NCBI GenBank assembly: GCA_015657535.1
Contig: JADHZB010000352.1
Coordinates: 1 to 64,000, forward strand
DNA: 64,000 bases
From: Nephromyces sp. MM_2019
Lineage: Eukaryota > Apicomplexa > Aconoidasida > Nephromycida
Direction of reading: 5' to 3'
The notes beneath the pieces were generated by a model. It did not search any database and was not told where the DNA came from. It worked only from the letters and a program-made list of their open reading frames with translations. Below are positions 30,281-64,000 of the stretch, piece by piece. A program made the position numbers and the translations under genes. The stretch's first letter is position 1. Every line of letters starts with the position of its first letter.

Positions 30281-30890
30281 TGGTTATACCACAGCATAAA
30301 AAATGAGTTTAAGATTGGATTGTATGACTCATTAATTTTTATCTTAACCAATTATCATGGATTTTATTGTATGTATTTTCTTGAAAATTAAAATATTTTT
30401 AAAAGAACTCTAGATGAGTTTGCTGGAACATTCATTACAGATTCACTATAAATTTAAAAAGTTAAGCCACTGTATATGTCTAACTAGCCCCTTGTGTGCT
30501 TAGATAGCATTATTTTACATAGTTACTAGTGAATCTAAGTCATTAGACCCAAAAGCATTGAGAAAATTTGAACAAGGAACATAAATTAGATAAGCTGAAA
30601 AAATTTGAAAAGGCATTAACCTTCAGGCACTATTCAAACATCGCCCCTTTAGGCTACTGTGACCTAAAATTTGTCAGAACTAATGACTGCAACATTCTCG
30701 TTTCCTAGGTTTGCAATTTTATCAAGATATTTCACAAAATTTCTAATGGAGAAGAATTTTGTTTAATGTGCTTATCATTATAATGCCTCAATGATACCCA
30801 AAACCAGTCAAATGCAAATTACCTCATCCTAAGTTTTAGTTGCTATTATGTGGTTTTATTATATTTTGCTTCTTAAATGGTTATAGCAAA

Positions 30891-33361
30891 ATGTATGAAG
30901 ATTCTTTCAGGATCCTTATAAATGAAACCTCTTCTTCTACTCATAATCATGATCTACCTCCAATGTGGAGTGAATTTGGTTGGATGCAACCCAGTGTCTA
31001 TTACGACAGGCAAACCTTGACTAACACCGATGCTAAAAACCTATGGGCATTGAGGAGCGAAGCCTTCCGACTCTCTTGGAGGTCATTCCTCGGATCTATA
31101 GATGCTTATATTGGTGATTGGTTGGACAACAACATAAAGACAGCCATTGAGTTCATTGAAACTACATCAAAAATAAATATGCCGGAGGTTCCAACATGTT
31201 TTGCATTTGTTGGAATCAGTATCGCTGACCATTTTAATGTCCTCAAACGACTATGTGACCAATTGGAAGGCAACCAGGCCCCCATAAATTCACGCAAAAC
31301 GGTAATACTTAGGTCACATGACTGTCCCTCGGTATCTCAAGCCTTATGTAGCATTATTGACCAATTGATCATGTCTACAGACTTTACAAAAATTGAGATC
31401 AAGGACCTAACAGGTCACAAACTCCTGGACCCTTCACCCAATTATGATTCTGCAATCTCAAAACTGGATGAATGGTTTGAGATGTATGAGCCATTCCTGG
31501 ACTTCAATGCCAATGCAACTTCATTTGTAATTGTCTTTGAAGACACTGAATTTTTTCCACCACATATAATAGATGGTATCATTCGGTTCTGCCATTGTCT
31601 CCGCAATGAATATAAAATAGCTGACTGTCTGATAATGGGTATATCTTTTAGTTCTCACTTTGTGGAATCTATCTGCGATCCCGAAACATTTAGGAAATTA
31701 CTCATTAAAGAATTAGACATATTCAACTCAAAAATCATTGGCAAAAAATTAAGTGATATGCTAATGCACAATCCTACACTTTTACCATTCATTATCCCCA
31801 AAGATTGCATTGAACGCATAGAACAATTTTTCACCTTATACAATTTTAGTATCTCATGTATGATTAAGCAGGTCTACTACATTTGTTTTGATTTTTTTAG
31901 CACGTCAGAACTATCATTTATTAATAGACCTCTTGATCATCTATATGAGCAATTAACTCATAAAAAGTCCAGTGATCTCAAATATGATGTTGAGAACTTT
32001 TATCGAAAACTTGGATTATTGATTGAATATTCTAGAGATGGCTTATCTGAAAGTAATAAAGCTGTCACTGCTGATATTGCGGCTTTTATTCTAGAGAGAA
32101 AATGTGCCATAAATCTGATACTGAAATTTGATAAATGTCTGTGCAAATTTCAAAATGAAGTTGGGGAAGTTCCCAGGGAACGAATCATCAGTAAGTTTTT
32201 CATGAGTTGAAATACAATTTTACTAATTCAAAACATATATCCTTATCATAAACATTTATTTTAATATTTAAATCAGCTGACATGAATGAGAGGCAAATGC
32301 TAGACTACAAAGAAAATAGTGCTGTTTGGCTTTTCAGGAGGGCTCAAACTCAACCATCTATTATGCTTGATTTCTTAAGAACAATATTGAGGTCTTTTGA
32401 AGGAATATCACAAAACCTGACAGAAATTCAAGAAAACAGTTTGCCAAAAATTATTTCAGACTTACCAACAAATTATGAGAAACATCACCTTTACAACACC
32501 TTAAAATCTGAGTTATATTCTATCATGTCAAGTTTTGATGCAAAAAACTGTAGTACTTCTCAAGCACAACGTGTTAAAACCTTTTTTAGGAATTATTTAC
32601 AAACATTGTTATTACCAAACACAACTACGATCGTAAACAAATCATTCTATATATGGGATAAGAGCCCAGCATGGTTGACTTCTGAGCTTAACCCAAATAC
32701 AGCACATGAATCATTTCATTTATTAGCTAATCTATTACCTGATAAGAAATCAATAACCGCTGATCATATAAACAATCCTACCTACGGAACACCATCCGAA
32801 ACAATCTCAAACAATCCAACAAAACATTCTCCATTACTTATAGATATTGCCCTTCTTTATAGGATATATGAAAACTCGGGACACATATCTAACCTCTGGG
32901 ATTGGTTCTGTTCTTTCTGTCAAGCCATACTTAAAAACAATAAGCTATTATCTAGTATTAAAACAGATGGAAAATCAACAAAAGCGGAGAATCATTTAAT
33001 AACACTCTTCCACACACGTTTCTGTATTGGTATTGGTACTTTGGGTCAATTAATAGGCATTCTTACAGTGAAATCACACAAAAAGAAAATGAATGATATA
33101 CAGATTACAGATGACACCAACTCTGTAAAACCAAAGAAGAAAGAAACACTGGTCGATAACACCAAATCTGTGGAGAAATTTATACTTGAAAACAAAACTT
33201 GGAATTTACTCAAGAGTGAAAAAGACGAATTTATTTCTCTTAAAAAAAAGATGTGTACATACAGGATAAAAAAATTATATTTTGGAAAGATTTTGGAAGA
33301 AGAAAATAAATCTTCTACACATGAAGCAATACCCATTTATAGGAAACGGAAAAAATTGTAA
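30891..33361 (+). CDS. ORC3: Origin recognition complex subunit 3
   Basis: ORC3 is a structural subunit of the six-part complex that marks replication origins and loads MCM. Exons are 30891-32190 and 32277-33361, joined at GTAAGT/CAG in phase 1, giving 794 residues (human 711). Family features: the N-terminal helix (RLSWRSFLGSIDAYI), a degenerate AAA+-like region from VPTCFAFVGISIADH with VFEDTEFFPPHIIDGII, then FTLYNFSISCMIKQV, and near the C-terminus LIDIALLYRIYENSG with NLWDWF, HTRFCIGIGTLGQLIG and a basic tail. An upstream in-frame ATG at 30840 gives a hydrophobic leader and is less likely; the AG just before 30891 may also be a splice acceptor. Codon use is standard and the exons are long compared with neighbouring genes. 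Confidence 0.92.
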
Positions 33362-43144: not shown

Positions 43145-44674
43145 CTTGTATATCTTTGTGTGTGTATGTGTGTTTGTAGTGCGTGTGTGTATTGTGTTTA
43201 AGCCTGGTTTTAGTGTATCAAGTTGATTTGTGAGTAATGATAAATAGGTTTTGAGAGCTTATGTAGGTGTGTGATGTCTAGCCATCGTCTATGTGTACAT
43301 GTCCATTATTGCGTGTGGGTATATGCTAATGTGAATAATTGTGTGTTTGTGTTTGCCATGTGTTTAAGTTTTGGTTTTTTGTGTATGTGTGTGTACTATT
43401 TGTCCTTTTGCATCATTTATATGTCCTTGTGTATCCTTCAAGGGGTATTTGTCTGGATTATGGTGGATGTGTACGCTTTATTGGTCTGGGTGATTGTGTT
43501 TATTTTGTTGGCGTATCTATCTGTATTATTGGATTGTATATGTGTTTTATAAATTCGTATATGTGTTTTATTGGATTTTGTGTATGTGTTTCATTCGCTT
43601 AGCTTTCGAGCTTGATGTATATATGTGTGTGTCCCTAATTTATGTGTGAATGTGTAAGATGTGTATGTTTATGATTGAAATTTGACCTAGTCTGGTTGTG
43701 CAGTTAAGTTTGTATCGATTGTGTCCTGAATGAAGAAAAAATAAAATCGATGTACCAGGTAAACATAAATATCATCAGGCATTGTTTTTAAATTATATGC
43801 TTGTTGTGTATATCTTTGAGTTTATTAAAAAACACCTTGTCAAAAATTAATTAACAAACTCATGACACATGCATCATCAAGTCTTATAACCGCTGCCTAA
43901 CTATACATATTTTATTTTATCGCACACATATTATTATTCACACACACATTATCACGAATATTTTTACATACATATCACCGCCCACACCTCCATTAATTGA
44001 AGACTTTATCATTTCATCAACTACACGCTTCACCTTATTAAAAACATTATCTTATAATCAATTAATCGCTACACTTCATAAATTCCAACTTCAAAAGAAC
44101 ACTACATCACACCTCGTCCTCAAACAAACACCACTCTTTACACACACACAAACCTCCTCACTTATACAATACATCTTTACATAAATCTCTCCCCATAAAT
44201 ACAGCCCAACTAATCATAAGCACAACACTCCTCACACATACCCCACCCCTCACACAGACAATACCCCACTAGTTAGACATATATCACACAACTCCTTACA
44301 TACACACCACCCCACTCCTCATATCCCCACCACCTCACTCCTCACATACACACCACTCCATTCCTCACATACACACCACCGCACTGCTCAAACTCACACA
44401 TCACTCCTCACAAACTCACCCACTTCATACACCACACCTCACAAAAACAACACCCCGAAGCCAAGAAACATCTCTGGCGCACACTACACCCCCAAACCTT
44501 ATATATGTATTGAATTCACATAATCCATATCTCTGATATTTTTATCCTCCTTATAGATTACCTCAAAGGAAAGTTCATATCTCAAACATAATCATCTCTT
44601 CTCCCTCCTTTCCACCCCGCACTACCACTCCTCCCACAAACTCTAACTAACCTTCCCTCCACACTCCTCCAACA
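43145..44674. other. Divergent promoter region with TG then CA blocks
   Basis: TG-rich sequence lies near the minus-strand gene (43150-43660) and CA/CT-rich sequence near RPA12 (43930-44660). Each sits on the 5' side of its gene, so both read CA-rich on the sense strand. It is the most C-rich stretch of the window. No gene was found. Confidence 0.6.
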
Positions 44675-45340
44675 ATGCCGAAGGACGACTCAGATATTTC
44701 TTGGTTCTTGAATGACTTACCAATTGGCATGAATTTGGAGGATGATGAATTATGCCAGAGTTTACTAGAAACAACAAAGGAAAATGTCAACGATTTGATA
44801 CAGTTCCTAACAAACGAACAAACGTTTGACCTGTCAGAATTAGACACTTTGGCCACCCCCAAGTTTGTATATGATGAGGGTGACTCATATGACTGGCATA
44901 TTGCACTTGGCTGTTTGAATTGTGGGGCAGAATTCAATATTCAAGACTATGGGGCTATATCAATGTTTCCAGATACACTTATTTGCACACATTGTGGTTT
45001 CTCTCCCTGCCCCAGGCATTATCAACCCACCAACCAAGAAAATGAGAGGCTTATATATTTGATGGGAACAAGAAAATACTATCATTTTGCTGATCAAAGA
45101 AAGGAGTGGTGGGAAGAGTACTTTCTACCCGCTTCGGATCGGGATGAGCGGATGGCCTACCAACTGAGGGCTGTTGAAACTATGAGTAAAAACAAAGGCC
45201 ATGTGATCACTGAGGAGTGCTCTCTCTGTGACCATGACCAGGCTTATTATCACACATTTCAAGCACGCTCAGCTGACGAAGGGATGACTATTATGTATGA
45301 ATGCTGCAAGTGTGGTGCAAGAAAAGTATTTAATAACTAG
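44675..45340 (+). CDS. RPA12: RNA polymerase I subunit RPA12-like (A12.2), N-terminally extended
   Basis: RPA12/POLR1H is the TFIIS-like subunit of RNA polymerase I that stimulates RNA cleavage. Single exon, 221 residues. The N-terminal zinc ribbon is CLNCGAEF with a later CTHCGF (residues of about 78-110). The C-terminal ribbon is EECSLCDHDQAYYHTFQ, then RSADEGMTIMYECCKCG, which contains the acidic hairpin RSADEG needed for cleavage. Typical RPA12 proteins are about 120 residues; here about 75 acidic residues precede the first ribbon and about 50 link the two. RPA12 fits better than RPB9 or TFIIS because the last ribbon ends the protein and there is no TFIIS central domain. Confidence 0.88.
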   Translation: MPKDDSDISWFLNDLPIGMNLEDDELCQSLLETTKENVNDLIQFLTNEQTFDLSELDTLATPKFVYDEGDSYDWHIALGCLNCGAEFNIQDYGAISMFPDTLICTHCGFSPCPRHYQPTNQENERLIYLMGTRKYYHFADQRKEWWEEYFLPASDRDERMAYQLRAVETMSKNKGHVITEECSLCDHDQAYYHTFQARSADEGMTIMYECCKCGARKVFNN

Positions 45341-46309: not shown

Positions 46310-47620
46310 CTAGTAATCCAGCCCTGTAGCTGCCCAATCAGTTTGCTCAACAGCAGCAGCCTCCTCACCTCTTTCTACATATACAAAGGCCTCTTCAGGT
46401 TCAAGATCATGGGCCTCATCTTCGGGGTTATAACTAATCTCTATTTCATCTGAAAATTCTTTTCCTCTGTTATAAAAGGTAAATTGAAATCAATGAGATC
46501 AAATTATATATATTATTTTAAAGAGTTAATATGATAGCAGTGAAGCCGAAGCGCATAAACTTCGTAACAGGAGACAAAAAATGATTAAAATTCAATTTAG
46601 ATGATTCCAAACCCATACACATTAAAAATAGGTATATCTCACTTCCGATAAAAATATGTACTGGCACCACTTGCCGCTAGCAAGACTGCACCTCCTATAC
46701 CACCAGCAATGGCAGCTGTACTGCTACTTCCAGTTTCTTCAGATTTTTCGGTTGATTCTGACTCACTAGAAGTAGATGCTTCACTTGATTGTTGGGCTTT
46801 AGGTGTACAGTCTTCACATTTTTTAGTTTCACGCTCATATTTTGAACTACACCTCCTCGTCCTCATTTCATCACATGTATCATCATCACATTCCCAATCT
46901 GTCCATTCACCACATAGAGAACCGCTTGATGGTGTGCAATCAGATCCACAGCTTTGAGTTTCTATAGCATAACCACAAAACTCCTTATGCCTTTCTTTAA
47001 AGCAACTTGCATCACAATCTGTCCAAGAAGTCCATTCACCACATTGTGGACCCACTGTACTGGTTGAGGTAGTACATGAGCTACATGTTTCACTTTCGCT
47101 TAGTGAAGTGCAGCTGGAACCAGTTCTGTGCCTTTCTCTAATACATGCACTATCACATGGAGTCCATGGCGCCCACTCACTACAGGACTGTGCATATGTA
47201 GAGATACTGTTGCCTGAAGCAAAATACAATTTTTTATGGGGTGCTCATACGTATATTTATATATAAATGTATGCACAAACTTAAATTAAGAGAATATAAA
47301 CAAAAATTTATACTAAAAATTTTTTTACATATATTTATTAAGAAAGGAACTATTTCTAAAACTCATACAAGATGTTTTTTGTGAACATATATTGTTTTGA
47401 ATGGATTTTTACATATTATATGTTTATATTCATACTTATAAATAACATCAAATATACCATTTATGTTTCTAATAAATTATTAAAATTGATTCATACTTAT
47501 AAACAACAATGAACACATACCAAACAATAACATTAATTACTACATACCTAAGATGATAACTATTAAAGATACAGCAAAAATTGATTTATACAGCCCAAAA
47601 CTTCCAATTGACTTCAACAT
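46310..47620 (-). CDS. TRAP-like thrombospondin-1 adhesin, type I membrane protein
   Basis: TRAP-family proteins link surface ligands to the gliding motor of apicomplexan zoites. Exons are 47620-47548, 47213-46643 and 46466-46310; the sum is 801 nt, giving 266 residues and TAG. Exon 1 is a signal peptide (LYKSIFAVSLIVIILG). Exon 2 has three TSP1-like repeats, each opening with a WxxW-type motif (EWAPWTPC, EWTSWTDC, EWTDWEC) and six or so cysteines, a Ser/Glu-rich stalk, and a membrane helix beginning AAIAGGIGGAVLL. The AIAGG start matches rhomboid cleavage sites. Exon 3 is a short acidic cytoplasmic tail (DEIEISYNPEDEA) with a tryptophan eight residues from the end (TDWAATGLDY), as expected for motor-connector binding. 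No von Willebrand A domain is present. Membership is inferred from this full combination. Confidence 0.88.
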
Positions 47621-54999: not shown

Positions 55000-56442
55000 A
55001 TGGGTGCAACCCATAACCTATATCTAAGCAAAATTTTGGGTTTCCTTTGGATAACAAATTTCACCTTTTCGTTATCAATCAAACATTGTAATCTTATAAC
55101 ATTTGATATTAATGTTGTCACTATTGTAAAACAGATGAAAATCCTACCAATTCACTTATTGGTACCGATTTCTCCGACAGTGATAAGAGAGGTATAGGCA
55201 CGAAGATTGGCCAGATTATTGGAGAAGGAGTAGAAGCTGTAGCAAAAAAGGGTGCAGAACTGCCCACAACTCATGTACAAAAATTTTGTATTAAACAACG
55301 GTTGCTAAGTATTATTTTAAGAATTTTGCAGGACCTCTAATCAAAAGTTTGGCAGAAATTCCGCCTCCAATAAAGCGTATTTAAGTTAAATTTTCAAATT
55401 TTAAGATAAATTCAATTCTTTTTAGCAAAATATGACTTAATTTATGACGACCCAAAGTCAGATGTAAGTTGAATTTTCAGTTAATAAGCAACAAGCTTTA
55501 ATTTAAAGCTTGAGAAATCCAGATTAAAACCTGTAGGAAGGGTAATTGAGCTTTTGAAAATCAAGGCAAATATTTATATGAAAGTATTCTAGATTATACC
55601 CAGCCCTGCCCTGAAGATTTTATCTTCCTTCCCAACCTTTATGGAAATGGTTCAGATATATGTGTGCCTTCAAAAAATTACGATGGTTTTACTCCTAAAA
55701 TTTTGAGATTCTTTTGAAATAGCCTTTTAATATAGGACCTTGTAATGAAAATGTCAATTTTGTGAATTTCCAAGAGGCATCAAAAGTTCTATGGGAGCAG
55801 AAATGCTTAAGAAATTGGTATTTCTTGACAAATTTTTCAATTATTTAATATAAATAATTTTTAGGCCTTGCAGAAATTGTATTATTGATTATTCAAGTAC
55901 ATGCCCTGGTATTTTTATATAAGTATAATTTAAAATTTTGAAATTGACTTTAATTGAAAATAGAGTTTTGGACTGAAGTCCCAGGTTAAAAATTCAATAT
56001 ACATAAATACACGAAAACAATGAGGTTTCAAGGCCTCATTAGGGTTTGTGAGGCCACTTCTAATTACTTAGGTAGATTTAAATAATATATCTTCGATCCC
56101 ATCTCAAATGTGTTTAAAGGGCCATGTTCTGGCTCGAGGATGGAATTTAGTGATATGAATATAGGTAAAATTGTAGACAATTTAGAGCTAGCAATGTAAT
56201 GCTTAATTAAGAGCTGAGAATGATGTGGGGTAGAGACTGTTGCGCTCATTGGCCATGTGCTAAACCATCACCTGATCTAGGGCCTGATCCTGGTATTAGC
56301 AAATTAGTTTCCAATATTTTTCTTTATAATTTATAAAATACCTCAGATTTTGCTTTGTCTTACAATGTAATTGACTTTAAATTGTGAGATTTCATAGCCT
56401 AAAATTTGATTATTGAACCTAGGCTACCAAGTGGCGTGTTGA
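55000..56442 (+). CDS. Secreted CPW-WPC domain protein
   Basis: CPW-WPC proteins are secreted, cysteine-rich proteins best known from apicomplexan insect stages. Twelve small exons: 55000-55087, 55135-55251, 55332-55376, 55426-55463, 55523-55541, 55566-55685, 55736-55817, 55865-55908, 55964-55984, 56120-56164, 56212-56292 and 56423-56442. They total exactly 720 nt, giving 239 residues. A signal peptide opens it (ILGFLWITNFTFSLS). Module 1: PCPEDFIFLP, NYDGPC and WEQKCLRNWPC. Module 2: STCPEFWTEVPGPC and WGRDCCAHWPC. The CPW tryptophan is Phe in module 1 (EDF) and Phe-Trp in module 2. One proposed intron (55542-55565) would be only 24 nt, so exons 5-6 are the weakest part; most others are 47-80 nt. 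Confidence 0.82.
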
Positions 56443-56783: not shown

Positions 56784-58948
56784 ATGAGTATCCATCCAGA
56801 AACAGAGGACAATATAGAAACTAATTCACTATTTCATGAGATTTTGATGGCTTTAGCTGGATTCAGTGGTGAATTAGTGCAGGCCAATGTTATCAATTAT
56901 GTTGTATCTGAAACTTTATATCCTATAATTAATAAAAACAAACTAAAAGACGATGGAGGACCCACTCAAAATGTGAACAATCCTTATTACCATCAACAAA
57001 GCCCAAAGGCTAGAAATGGAAAGTTAACTTTCAAAATAAACCCCGATCTCAAATTCCTTAAAGAATCAGAGAGACAAATATTAGATAATATTGTTTCTAT
57101 AGGATACGATTTCCTAATTTTGAAAACTTTTATATCAGATATAAGGGATATATCTTCAAAATCAAATTCTGGAACACATGACTTCACAAGAGTAACATCG
57201 GATTCACAAAATGGAATAGGCCCTACAACCTATCAGGCAAACAGTGTGATAAATTTAAATAAAAATCATCTTAAACTCAATCTAAGCTCTGAAGCTAAAT
57301 TCGGTTATTATTCCTCGGTGTTTTGCAAGTGTGTAGAGAGGGTGTGTAATTTATACCTCAAAAAGATCACTCAATTAGAATCTGAATATATAAAGGACCC
57401 ATTATTACCTATACAATATATTTTAACATCATTAAGAGAAGAAAAGGTTCAACTATCAGCTCTTCGATATATCATAGAAAAGGTAGAGAGATATTTTTCA
57501 TAGAATACAAACTAAGGCTTTGAAACTTCATTAAGTTCTTTTACTGACTGAATCTAAATTACCAAGTACTGTGCATTTTATCTTTTTGGAAATTATCAGA
57601 ATTTTTATGATCCAAGTGGGAATGAAATAACAAATAACAACCATTCAATAAAAATTGATAATTTCCTTGATCAAATGGAGAAATCTTCTATAACTGGTAA
57701 TCCAATACTCCAAAAGGTTTACAAGGCTATCTTCGAAGCGTGTTCCAGGATCTTTATTTTCCAGGTAACTTATCATAATAACAGGAAAACACCACTTTAT
57801 ATCTGTATAATTATTTTTTCTTAGCTTTCCGAATGGATACTATACGGCCAATTGAAAGATCCATATAGGGAATATTTTATCCATAAAAATGATAAATTTT
57901 TCACAAAACTATATAATAGGTAATAAATGAAATAAATTCCATTTTTTTACTAGATACATCTCTTTCCATAACAATTAATATATTAGGAGCCTTTATCATT
58001 ACTCCCAAACCCTCTATAAAATAAGACGCCATGAAGCTCTTTTTGAGTTCAATCATTTATTCCAAGTTGATCAGGACCGAATCCCCAATTGTTTATTAAG
58101 CCCAATTAATGCCAATAAGGTTATACTGAATTGACGGTTACATAATATAAATATTAATCACACCCGATATTAAATGAATAACACCTACATATTGCTTTAG
58201 GTGTTAGAAATTGGTAAATACGTACGTTTGCTATTTCGAATGACATCATATCCAAAGGACCAAGTTAACTATAACTTGGATATGGAAAGAAAATTGGTAT
58301 GTACATCATTTCTCATCTTATTTGAAATAGCACTAAAAATCCTCATACTACTCGAAATAGAAATCAATTATACAACATGAGAATCCTAAATTTGGCTTAG
58401 AGTGCTTAATCGATGAACATTATGATCACGTAATCTCTTGATAACATTTACACCCTTTAGAATAGATCTTTTACACTTTATTTATTAACAATAAAATAGG
58501 TCATGAAGCAATTTTATGATCTTCTTATAAACAAATCTGAATTACTTTCACATTTCCAATTTATAAGAGATTTCTATCTATTAGGAAAAGGTAATGAATA
58601 ATACACACTCAATATATATTTTCTATATCTATAACTACAAATTCTATGATAGGAGATTTCCATAGCCATTTCATTGAAGCAAGTTGGGAAAGGATGACAA
58701 ATCCTCCAAATAAACGCTCAGAGACAGATCTCAAGGTATTAGATAATTCTTATTTACAATTTATATGCAACTTAACATTATTTTTATATCTTCTAGATTA
58801 CTTCATGGAATGATGCTATAATTTCTACCATTGCGGAATCTACTAAATTTGACACAGAGGAATTAAAAAATACTCAACCTAATCAAGCCAATAACAATCA
58901 AGAACTTCGTCGGCTAGGTATATAAGCTTGAGTAATGTGTGAAATTCA

Positions 58949-58990
<42 letters not shown>

Positions 58991-61900
58991 AGGCTGGTTT
59001 GCTAAGAATTTACACAATCAATTGGATCTCAAAATTGAGTAAGTTATAATTTAATCTTGTTAGTCTTTGAAAACTAAAATTATTGTGCTAACAACAATTT
59101 TTGAATTCCTAATTCAGACATGAAGAAATCAACTATCAATCTATACCTCCCCTTTCTGATCCTAATATACATTTAATTTTGGGTGGAAATTCATGGTAAG
59201 TGCTAAAAATCTAATCAACTTAGAGGATAATACACATTTGATATCTAAACATATAGGATTAAAAATGGAAGGTTATACATGAGTTCTACAAATACTGAAG
59301 AAAATAAAAATAGAATTTTATCTAAGGAGCCTATTACTAAGGATCCTTATAGTGCTATTTGGTTAAATAATAAAAAATTTATATACCCTGGATTTGAGGT
59401 ATTTCCATATATTTATTATGTGCTAGAGAATATATTCCTATATATCTATTATCATTTAATTTGTTAAAGTATTATTACTTAATTCGTAAACTATTAGTAA
59501 TTTTTTCCAACACCAGTTTATCGATATATCTTATATATGCTTCAAACCTATCATTTTTTAAAATTTCACATTCTCTGTTATTCTAAATATCTCTAAATCC
59601 TATTCCTAGCCACTTAAACTCGACATTCACTTATAACATATGATACTTTATAAAACTCAAAATCTTATAGATTTACACATCTGTTACATATTATAACATA
59701 CCTAATAATATAATGCTAACTATAGCTTTCGTTTGACTTCACAATGGATATAATGGATGGCCCTACTTGCTATTTCGAAAGGCGTAGGAATTCCGAATTT
59801 GGCTGTCGATTTGCTGTTGTACTTCAGAATGATTTTTACCCCTTTAACGTAAACAGAGATTATAGCAAGATGAGAGATTCATTTTGGCCAAATTATAGTA
59901 GGTTATTACACACTCTTTCTAATTTTACACTATTTTTTATTGCTTCAAATTCAACTGTTCATTTACACACCCTTTCTAAATTCACTGTTTTTATACATTT
60001 TCATTTTGAATTCATTGTTTAGACACACACACTTTCTGATTTTTCTATTTATAAATGCACAACTTATACACAGATTAATTCTAATAACACTATTTCTAAG
60101 TACACTACTTATATACACATCCTTCATAATTCCACTACTTATATTCACACCTTAAATTCCTTATTTTGTTACCCTCACTAACTTAGTGAGAAACTCAGCC
60201 CCGTATTTCACACTTATAGTTGTATATGCACTAATTTCATTTTACTCTCAAAATTTTGATGAGTGTTTATACTAGTTTAGATTTCCTTTACTATTTGAAT
60301 TATTTTTCATTTATTACACACAGAGGATTGTTTAGCCATTGAATTTACACTCAGCATTACTAATACAAATGGTTTAATTGATTTCAATAATAACTCTGAA
60401 AGAACAGCTAATTATAATATAAGGCAACAAATCTCTATTTATTTAGGTATGTATCAAATACACACACATACAGAACACACATATAAACAACACACACAAC
60501 ACATAAACAACATATAAAACACACAGAATACACCCTACACAATATATATGCAATAATCACATAATATATATACAATTCGTATACAATTTACACACAATAC
60601 ATATACAACAAATACAATTTATACACAATTTATACACAGTGTGTACACAGTACATACACAACATACGAACACTATAAATACACAATACACACATACTATA
60701 AACTCTTTTTTACACATACGATAAGCTCACAATATACATAGTACATGCACAATTTCCACACATTTTGATCCCCTCCTTCCCTCACACACACCTATCAAAT
60801 AAATAATTGTTTTCAAAGGAAGTGAAGGTGTATCTAGGATATTGAGCATACCACACTCTGTGAGTTCATCCAAATTAATTAAGGAGGCCAATTTAATTGG
60901 CCAAATCGCTGATTTTTACATCAACAATCAACCTCGTCTATCAACCACACATTCAGTTGATGGAAATTCTATGAATGATTATACACCAATTTTACTTATC
61001 GATGAACAGACAAAAACTTACACACTAGACCATCAATCACTTCTTGATTTCATGAACAAAGAAAAACACATTAGGTATGCATTTATAATTTAAATGATAT
61101 TATATATATATATGTATATAAATTACTTTTTAAATCCAAACCAACTTATTTTACACACTTCTTTTGTTTACAGATATAAGATACACATGCTAAATATACA
61201 CACATTATTTATAGACACATGACTATTTACTTTTTCACTCTGTATATTCTTGTTGTACATACAAGCTAGCCTTGCTCACCTATCAAAATTCACATACACA
61301 TAATGATACACATACACATATATATACATACATCTTTATAATTATATAAACAGTTGTTGTTATTCTTAACATTTCACCTATAATTAATTTGCATTCCTAA
61401 TCTTCATGCACACTCATTACATTAAATATATATATATATATATATATATACCAAAGTGTGTGTGTGCACTTATATTATTTTTCTTTCTACATTATACGAT
61501 TCAGAATTTCTTGTTTCAAGGATAATTTGGAAATACTCTATGACAATCTAGAATTTCTTTACACAGATTTAATGGTATTTATAATTATTGCACATGTTTA
61601 AATTAACTTTGATAAAACATTTAAGCTATGAAATATATATATATTATTATATAATATATACACACGTTTTCCTTATGTATATATTTAATCTATACACACA
61701 TTTCTAATTATATGTAACTATTTATATTATAAAGCTTAACGAAGCTATTAGTACAGAAATGGGAACTACATATGTTGGGTTAGTTTATTCGCCTCACACT
61801 TACCTATAAAGTCGTATACAAACTAATATATACACACATATATATTTACATGTTTATTTTTATAAAATTTAACAGATATATATATATATATATATGCTTA

Positions 61901-64000
61901 TATATACCTAATTCTATACAATACAAACACTTAATAATATTATCTTATCAGCACATACATCTATAACATTATTTATACAATATATATATGTTATTTCAAA
62001 AAAATAATATAATATACTTTATAACTCATTTTATTCATGCAAACACACACAAGTTATAACACACTTTTTTATCATTAATAATTACATATTTTTTTCATTT
62101 GTTAGTATAACAACCCTACCCTTAACAACTGACCATAGTTTAATAACTGATTTGACTGCATTTGATTATAGTAATATTACATACTATACATTTCTATGAT
62201 ATATTGGGCAACTCATAGAACTATTTTATACTATATATACATTTTAAAATTTATGCCTTCAATTATACACACCAAACATATAAAGACAAATAATAATTTT
62301 ATACACATATAGCCAACATACGCTCTCTTTGTTTACACACACTACACAAACAATATAAATACTCAATATTCAGACATAGTACAAGAGATATACATACACA
62401 TCACATAATCCAGATACACAATACATATTACAAACACACTACATATTACAAACACACTACATATTACAAACACACTACTTATTACAAACACACTACACAT
62501 CACAAACACACCATACTTTAAACATATACTATACGTTACACACACACCCCACATTATACACACTATTCTCTAAATATACGATACATATTACACACAAGTT
62601 ATAAAAAAATTAAATTGATAACATAATCTAGATACATTTAATATATAAATTAAATTTACACAGTAAAACTTGGCATATTAGATAAACCTACACAGATACC
62701 ACAGCCCCCCACATTTTCAGATAAGGATTGGTTAACCTTTTTTCATACACATTTTCAATAATGAATAAATATTTTACACATTATAAGCACTATTGTGATA
62801 ATTTGATTGTATATGCTGTCTACACACAGTTTTATATCTCTATACATACTATTATTTATATACACACACCGTCATAAACAATATAATTGCTATACTAGTT
62901 TCATAACAAAATTTTAATTATTGTTATTTTCTCTGTATATACACACCCTATTTAATAGTAATTATATATATATATATATATATATATCTAAAGATCTCAT
63001 TATATTATGTATGTAGATATACCTATAAATGTATATACACATATTGATATCTACACAGCATCAATATAATGTGCGTGTGTGTGTATGTGTCTTTTTGTGT
63101 GTATATTTAGTGCTATACAATTATCAAGTTTTACCTATTCATCTATACGTGACAATAAAACTTGTCTACCGAAATTAATGGATGAATCAGAGGAGTATGA
63201 TTTTCTTAAGGGTTGGCAAAATGTGTGGCTATCTTACACACCCCCATGGCCTATTTATTTGGTTGTTACACACAACCATTTAAACTCATATAATTTATTT
63301 TTTCAACTCCTTTTCTTACTCAAGTAAGAGTTATATAAAAAATTATATATTATATGTTTGTGTGTTTGTTTGTGTACGTGTTTATATATATATATTATTA
63401 TTATTAGGAGAGGACAACACAATTTTATAAGGATGTGGTCAGAAGGTGCAACTTGGAGGAGGTAAATTAACATTATATTACACACGCTCATACAAATAAA
63501 CACATAAAAACACACCCACCAACACACGCTCATACAAACAAACACATAAAAACACACCCACCAACACATACACACACAAACAAACACACACACACATACA
63601 AACACGCACACACATACACAATAAATATATAATGTAGAACTATCTGTAAATTTACACCGGATGACTCAGCCATTTTAACTCAATTTTGGCTCACTAAATC
63701 ACGTATGGAATTCCTATTTAATCGAATAATTGAATTTATTCATCACAATGTATTAGAGGTAAATATAAATTTGAATCATCTTACGCTTAGATATTTATGC
63801 ACGAAAACACAAACACATACACACACATATACACATACATATACACACATACATATACACATACTAACACAAACGCACTCACACATGCATGTATATATAC
63901 ACACCCACACATACAAACATTACATAAAGATAATTATATATTGTTAATTAATCACAGCCTGAATTTGCTGATTTGAACTCAAATTGTCTTAACACACATT
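56784..64000 (+). CDS. GCP4: Gamma-tubulin complex component 4 with inserted lectin-like domain, 3' end outside window
   Basis: GCP4 is a gamma-tubulin ring complex subunit that nucleates microtubules. Twenty-two phase-consistent exons are seen: 56784-57482, 57600-57764, 57825-57919, 57987-58119, 58201-58296, 58500-58590, 58653-58735, 58797-58917, 58993-59038, 59118-59195, 59257-59398, 59726-59897, 60324-60446, 60819-61074, 61505-61574, 61735-61778, 62106-62170, 62682-62730, 63111-63323, 63408-63461, 63638-63758 and 63958 onward (986 codons so far). GRIP1 signatures: SLFHEILMALAGFSG, LSEWILYGQLKDPYREYFI, VLEIGKYVRLLFR, FIRDFYLLGKGDFHSHFIE. GRIP2 signatures: WLSYTPPWPIYLVVTHNHL, SRMEFLFNRIIEFIHHNV. 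Between them residues of about 525-826 form a concanavalin-like fold: RLYM, YSAIWLNN, YPGFE, CRFAVVLQND, CLAIEFTLSI, QQISIYL, TYVGIT. The ATG at 56784 fits the family start; no stop separates the parts. Confidence 0.92.
58948..58987. repeat. TA microsatellite at GCP4 intron 8 acceptor
   Basis: About 20 TA units run to within five bases of the GTTAG acceptor of exon 9. Confidence 0.95.
62380..62570. repeat. ACATATTACAAACACACT tandem repeat in GCP4 intron 17
   Basis: Five or six close copies of an 18-base unit lie in the longest intron of GCP4 (62171-62681). They carry an open frame on the minus strand that is a repeat artefact. Confidence 0.85.
63480..63625. repeat. Duplicated CACACCCACCAACACACGCTCATACAAA-type repeat
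   Basis: Two near-identical copies of about 48 bases (63486-63533 and 63534-63575) are followed by ACAC runs in GCP4 intron 20. Confidence 0.85.

Follow-up and report, generated by a model that had tools for sequence, protein, structure and literature searches.

The GRIP2 region of GCP proteins is their gamma-tubulin-binding region. Known GCP4 (TUBGCP4; PDB 3rip and 6v69) combines GRIP1 and GRIP2 in about 667 residues. In the human gamma-tubulin ring complex, the outer surface of the GCP3 GRIP2 domains docks MZT1 modules, as described in PMC8789826, and, according to PMC12094035, an insertion at residues 567-608 of GCP5 contacts GCP6 in the ring. Here we analyse a GCP4 gene in the window, that is, positions 1-64,000 of contig C187 (65,325 bases) from the 48.3 Mb assembly of Nephromyces sp. 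MM_2019; the gene continues past the window. Its product has both GRIP1 and GRIP2, but in the joined model it spans 1087 codons, and a loop of about 50 residues (396-445 of known GCP4) is replaced by about 380 residues, or up to 400 if one doubtful exon, exon 17, is counted. An earlier note, drawn from the letters of this stretch alone, had claimed that a large extra block is built into the protein, and this is supported by a diverged second GCP4 gene on contig C1052 of the same assembly, which shares the block. Taken together, the sequence comparisons suggest that the variable GRIP2 loop of GCP4 in this apicomplexan-like organism probably holds a conserved accessory domain some 300 residues long, for a net insertion of about 330 residues. 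As in human GCP5, the insertion lies in a GRIP fold; that of GCP5, which we liken to it by description only, belongs to another subunit, lies in GRIP1 and is a short helix-turn-helix.

A GCP4 gene with an insert inside GRIP2

The spliced gene lies on the + strand; it begins at 56784, an ATG in exon 1 that was our choice of start, and its stop codon falls at about contig position 65213. Exons 1-16 (56784-61778) and eight exons from 63111 onward form a single frame from ATG to stop without internal stop codons, so that the run of agreeing exons described in the earlier note stands, except for its exon at 62106-62170, which breaks phase. Pfam searches of the joined protein identify GCP_N_terminal (GRIP1; E 1e-29, 104.5 bits against a cut-off of 29.4, residues 69-387) and GCP_C_terminal (GRIP2; E 1e-14, 55.2 bits against a cut-off of 25.8), the latter in two stretches split by the insert. 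The best PDB matches, by far, are five sequences of 666-677 residues, of which three bear the name GCP4 and the other two just the name gamma-tubulin complex component. Because these GCP4-type chains score 88.4-92.4 bits, against 41.8 bits for the next chain (905 residues), at most 38.5 for chains named GCP2 and at most 35.5 for those named GCP3, we assign the product by sequence to GCP4, which it resembles more closely than GCP2, GCP3, GCP5 or GCP6.

The earlier note had placed the extra block between the two GRIP regions. The GRIP1 match extends to residue 387, and positions 1-52 of GCP_C_terminal precede the block, in exons 6-8, with the match restarting at position 70 (63145). Because the GRIP2 match starts upstream of the insert and resumes downstream of it, the alignments place the insert inside GRIP2. 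The comparison with the best GCP4-type PDB chain agrees in position: residues 389-456 of the query align with positions 328-395 of that chain, and after chain residue 395 (query 456) the alignment takes up again at chain residue 446, against query 859 in a numbering that includes exon 17. The long loop marks the protein as a variant of GCP4 that is still a member of the family. The match between known GCP2 and the GCP2 of this assembly crosses the equivalent place in a single open frame, and no such insert interrupts it. The exons, with phases given as start/end, are as follows.

56784..57482, + strand: exon 1 (GRIP1); open frame, donor gtagag, GCP_N_terminal match
57600..57764, + strand: exon 2 (GRIP1); phase 0/0
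57825..57919, + strand: exon 3 (GRIP1); phase 0/2
57987..58119, + strand: exon 4 (GRIP1); phase 2/0
58201..58296, + strand: exon 5 (end of GRIP1); phase 0/0
58500..58590, + strand: exon 6, start of GRIP2 (FQFIRDFYLLGKG); GCP_C_terminal positions 1-52 at residues 411-464
58653..58735, + strand: exon 7 (GRIP2); phase 1/0; C1052 counterpart not found
58797..58917, + strand: exon 8 (GRIP2); alignment to known GCP4 stops at residue 456
58993..59038, + strand: exon 9, linker into the insert; phase 1/2, same in C1052
59118..59195, + strand: insert exon 10 (..LILGGNSW); phase 2/2, same in C1052
59257..59398, + strand: insert exon 11 (..NGRLYMS..PGFE); phase 2/0, same in C1052
59726..59897, + strand: insert exon 12 (..GCRFAVVLQND..SFWPN); phase 0/1, same in C1052, with 45% identity to C1052 over 31 residues
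60324..60446, + strand: insert exon 13 (CLAIEF..ISIYL); phase 1/1, same in C1052
60819..61074, + strand: insert exon 14 (about 85 residues); phase 1/2; C1052 counterpart not located
61505..61574, + strand: insert exon 15 (ISCFKDNLEILYDN); phase 2/0; C1052 counterpart tentative
61735..61778, + strand: insert exon 16 (..TTYVG); phase 0/2, in frame with 63111; CTYIG in C1052, boundary tentative
62106..62170, + strand: doubtful exon 17 of the earlier note; breaks the frame to 63111
63111..63323, + strand: GRIP2 resumes at FLKGWQNVWLSY, after last residues possibly of the insert; GCP_C_terminal positions 70-127 at 63145-63324, known GCP4 446-569 aligned
63408..63461, + strand: GRIP2 exon; phase 2/2
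63638..63758, + strand: GRIP2 exon; phase 2/0
63958..64000, continuing to 64052 beyond the window, + strand: GRIP2 exon, followed by four more exons to the stop at about 65213

Exon 17 ends in phase 1, while the exon at 63111 needs phase 2, and the frame agrees when exon 17 is left out. Only four of the direct joins tried from exon 17 are open, each at the cost of the start of the 63111 exon, and none of seven possible routes through an intermediate exon is supported. We take exon 17 for intron because its residues are unlike the C1052 stretch that follows CTYIG (score 13, shuffled mean 14.1). Beyond the window, the phases of a junction from 64052 to 64440 disagree, and an acceptor giving 64426 agrees instead.

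Conservation of the insert in a second GCP4 gene

A search of the whole assembly with the insert returned ten matches, nine of them to its own exons on C187 and one to C1052 (13235-13342, minus strand, E 0.014, 42% identity). Upstream on the same strand of C1052 lie three GCP_N_terminal matches (E 5e-5, 0.0027 and 0.26), none of which alone exceeds the cut-off, and the C187 protein matches this region by tblastn with E 1.4e-22 and 28% identity over residues 16-233. Twelve exons of the C1052 gene were located, and all ten junctions with both neighbours located share the C187 phase, although the boundaries were picked with C187 as guide, partly favouring phase agreement. Identity between the two proteins is 30% overall and 26% in the insert. 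The local alignment score between the two inserts is 141, against a shuffled mean of 33.4 (standard deviation 4.9), and was reached in none of 1000 shuffles; exons 10-13 alone, which involve no bridged junction, score 134 against a highest value of 58 in 1000 shuffles. By this measure the resemblance is more than chance and identifies a homologous insert in the second GCP4, there too placed downstream of where GRIP2 begins. Differences at codon positions 1, 2 and 3 number 108, 68 and 115 over 165 codons of the insert and 206, 149 and 241 over 370 codons of exons 1-5, so that the second position is alike in the two parts (0.41 and 0.40 changes per codon), although a protein-guided alignment in itself tends to favour second codon positions. 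These comparisons show, if indirectly, that the insert is conserved at the level of protein sequence, somewhat less than the GRIP1 part.

Several points weigh against a conserved accessory domain, in addition to the guided choice of exon boundaries and the alignment effect just described. Amino-acid identity is lower in the insert (26%) than in exons 1-5 (34%), and first codon positions change more often (0.65 against 0.56 changes per codon). Only two sequences enter the insert comparison. In C1052 no counterpart of exon 7 or exon 14 was located, exons 15 and 16 have tentative ones, and the remaining sequence of that gene consists of N, which hides the GRIP2 end. No known domain was recognised in the insert in Pfam, NCBIfam and PDB searches. 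Finally, because exon 9 joined directly to 63111 leaves an open frame of 792 codons, the insert could be skipped by splicing, and it may, judging from the frame, be left out of some or all transcripts as an optional cassette; direct joins of exons 3, 10 and 14 to 63111 are likewise open. In its strongest form, this argument would make exon 9 to 63111 the usual splice of GCP4 and the insert exons alternative transcripts, a separate gene or part of a long intron. The 792-codon product would be near the size of an ordinary GCP4, and introns here are long and of low complexity, but the frame is also open through exons 10-16 and the same exons recur in unchanged order in C1052, and we regard this explanation as very unlikely.

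The relationship between the two GCP4 genes depends on how the assembly is read. The contigs examined divide by guanine-plus-cytosine (GC) content, with C187, C499, C152 and C1018 at about 28-31% and C1052, C760, C661 and C1090 at 38-45%, and four gene pairs span the two classes: the GCP4 pair, a GCP-like pair (C499/C760), a lectin pair (C152/C661) and a uricase pair (C1018/C1090). A third uricase contig, C548 (44-47% GC), and GCP2 on C1019 (32% GC), which has no partner among the matches listed, do not fit the division. The assembly may accordingly be read as a mixture of two related organisms, and it is because of this reading that the GCP4 genes are taken, provisionally, as orthologues. That they are instead paralogues within a single organism seems improbable to us: both genes do lie in one assembly and GCP2 was found on one contig only (C1019) among the matches listed, but the other genes examined split by GC composition. 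Conservation of the insert holds in either case. The GCP-like pair on C499 and C760 was matched by eye, its GCP_N_terminal scores (E 0.005 and 0.012) falling below the cut-off; by eye it has no counterpart of the GCP4 insert, and for one of the C499 frames a PDB search finds nothing below E 0.15.

Lectin-like motif order in the insert

The earlier note had identified the block as a concanavalin or L-type lectin fold. By eye, the order of its short hydrophobic motifs (LILGG, NGRLYM, SAIWLNN, GFELSFDF, CRFAVVLQN, CLAIEF, ISIYL and TYVG) resembles that of L-type lectins such as ERGIC-53 and VIP36 (PF03388, PF00139 and PF18483), and the C1052 insert shows LILGG, GRI, GF..FD, GCRLAVVFQN, CVAVEL and TYIG. 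The motifs quoted in the note are thus present, with the reservation that the final IT of its TYVGIT hangs on exon 17.

Database searches did not recover this likeness. The Pfam search of the joined protein that the note had proposed, which found GCP_N_terminal and GCP_C_terminal, gave no family at E ≤ 10 for the insert, nor did Pfam for the C1052 insert; NCBIfam gave no family match, PHROGs gave three weak matches of unknown function (best E 0.036), a phmmer search of PDB with one insert gave only two lactoferrin sequences (E 1.1), and a PDB search with a two-row insert profile gave nothing at E ≤ 10. Genome searches with PF03388, PF18483 and PF00139 at E ≤ 10 missed the insert, while PF03388, as a positive control, detected the lectins on C152 and C661. 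Direct comparisons were equally negative. Local alignment scores of the two inserts against the C152 lectin, ERGIC-53 and VIP36 lay within one standard deviation of shuffled sequences in 6/6 comparisons, and a three-row lectin hidden Markov model (HMM) scored the inserts at -1.0 and -1.9 bits. Alignment of the insert profile to the lectin profile with hhalign, a weak test of two rows against three, gave probabilities of 0.3% and 0.2% (P 0.23 and 0.32), compared with 0.1% and 0.05% for a GRIP1 control.

None of the tests run on sequences or profiles (Pfam, NCBIfam, PDB, local alignment, HMM and hhalign) therefore supports a lectin pattern beyond chance, though all of them are weak for a remote fold given so few sequences, and the lectin identity proposed in the note finds no sequence or profile similarity behind it. 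If the by-eye alignment is right, neither copy retains the acidic residues with which lectins bind metal and sugar, no lectin alignment being significant. On these grounds, a beta-sandwich of the concanavalin or L-type lectin kind that no longer has its metal site and acts as a surface on which proteins dock, which overlaps with the accessory-domain explanation and names its fold, appears doubtful, even though the motif order is lectin-like by eye and several of the motifs recur in C1052.

Chou-Fasman averages do not separate the insert, GRIP1 and a lectin. That the propensities leave the insert indistinct from GRIP1 would suit a loosely constrained insertion of apicomplexan style, with no specific fold or role, as would its identity below that of exons 1-5 and the missing C1052 counterpart of exon 14. 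Large lineage-specific inserts are, moreover, common in apicomplexan proteins. We nonetheless hold such an insertion to be unlikely, and prefer a conserved accessory domain.

Genomic setting and possible role

Directly upstream of the GCP4 gene, two adjacent + strand frames at 55550-55848 match CPW_WPC (Pfam E 1.5e-4, at the cut-off, and 2.4e-5), an apicomplexan domain described from Plasmodium, which makes an apicomplexan source likely; the uricase genes of the assembly hint, tentatively, at a nephromycid. Elsewhere in the window, the frame at 30840-32210 encodes an ORC3 N-terminal domain (PF07034, E 2.7e-19), which the frame at 32252-33361 may continue, and the protein encoded at 44651-45340 contains a zinc ribbon of the TFIIS type (PF01096, E 2.2e-12). 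A minus-strand frame at 46639-47244, with no Pfam match at E ≤ 0.01, carries several copies of a CGEWTxWxxCD-like motif and, at its C-terminal side, a hydrophobic stretch, and looks by eye like a thrombospondin-repeat surface protein.

A search of a 5.8-billion-protein database returned nothing at E ≤ 10 for the insert or for the GRIP parts; eukaryotic GCPs appear to be missing from this database, so the empty result is uninformative about other apicomplexans. The listed titles and abstract openings of open-licence literature on GCP4 with lectin, insertion, Apicomplexa, Toxoplasma or Plasmodium mention no such insert, and the words insertion and lectin are absent from the accessible part of PMC12421850.

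The spliced frame is open from GRIP1 into the first part of GRIP2, across the insert and on through the remainder of GRIP2. If GCP4 carries a conserved accessory domain here, the domain may provide a docking or contact surface. We infer this role by analogy, because of the precedents of MZT1 on GCP3 and of the GCP5 insertion. A more elaborate scenario, in which a lectin-fold sandwich that no longer binds sugar, perhaps as a splice-optional cassette, sits in GRIP2 of GCP4 in a group of apicomplexans and ties the gamma-tubulin ring complex to some microtubule-organising structure specific to the parasite, is in our judgement hardly likely. A conserved extra domain inside GRIP2 would offer a defined target for structure determination, for deletion and for bait experiments, and its presence suggests that the GRIP2 loop tolerates an insertion the size of a domain.

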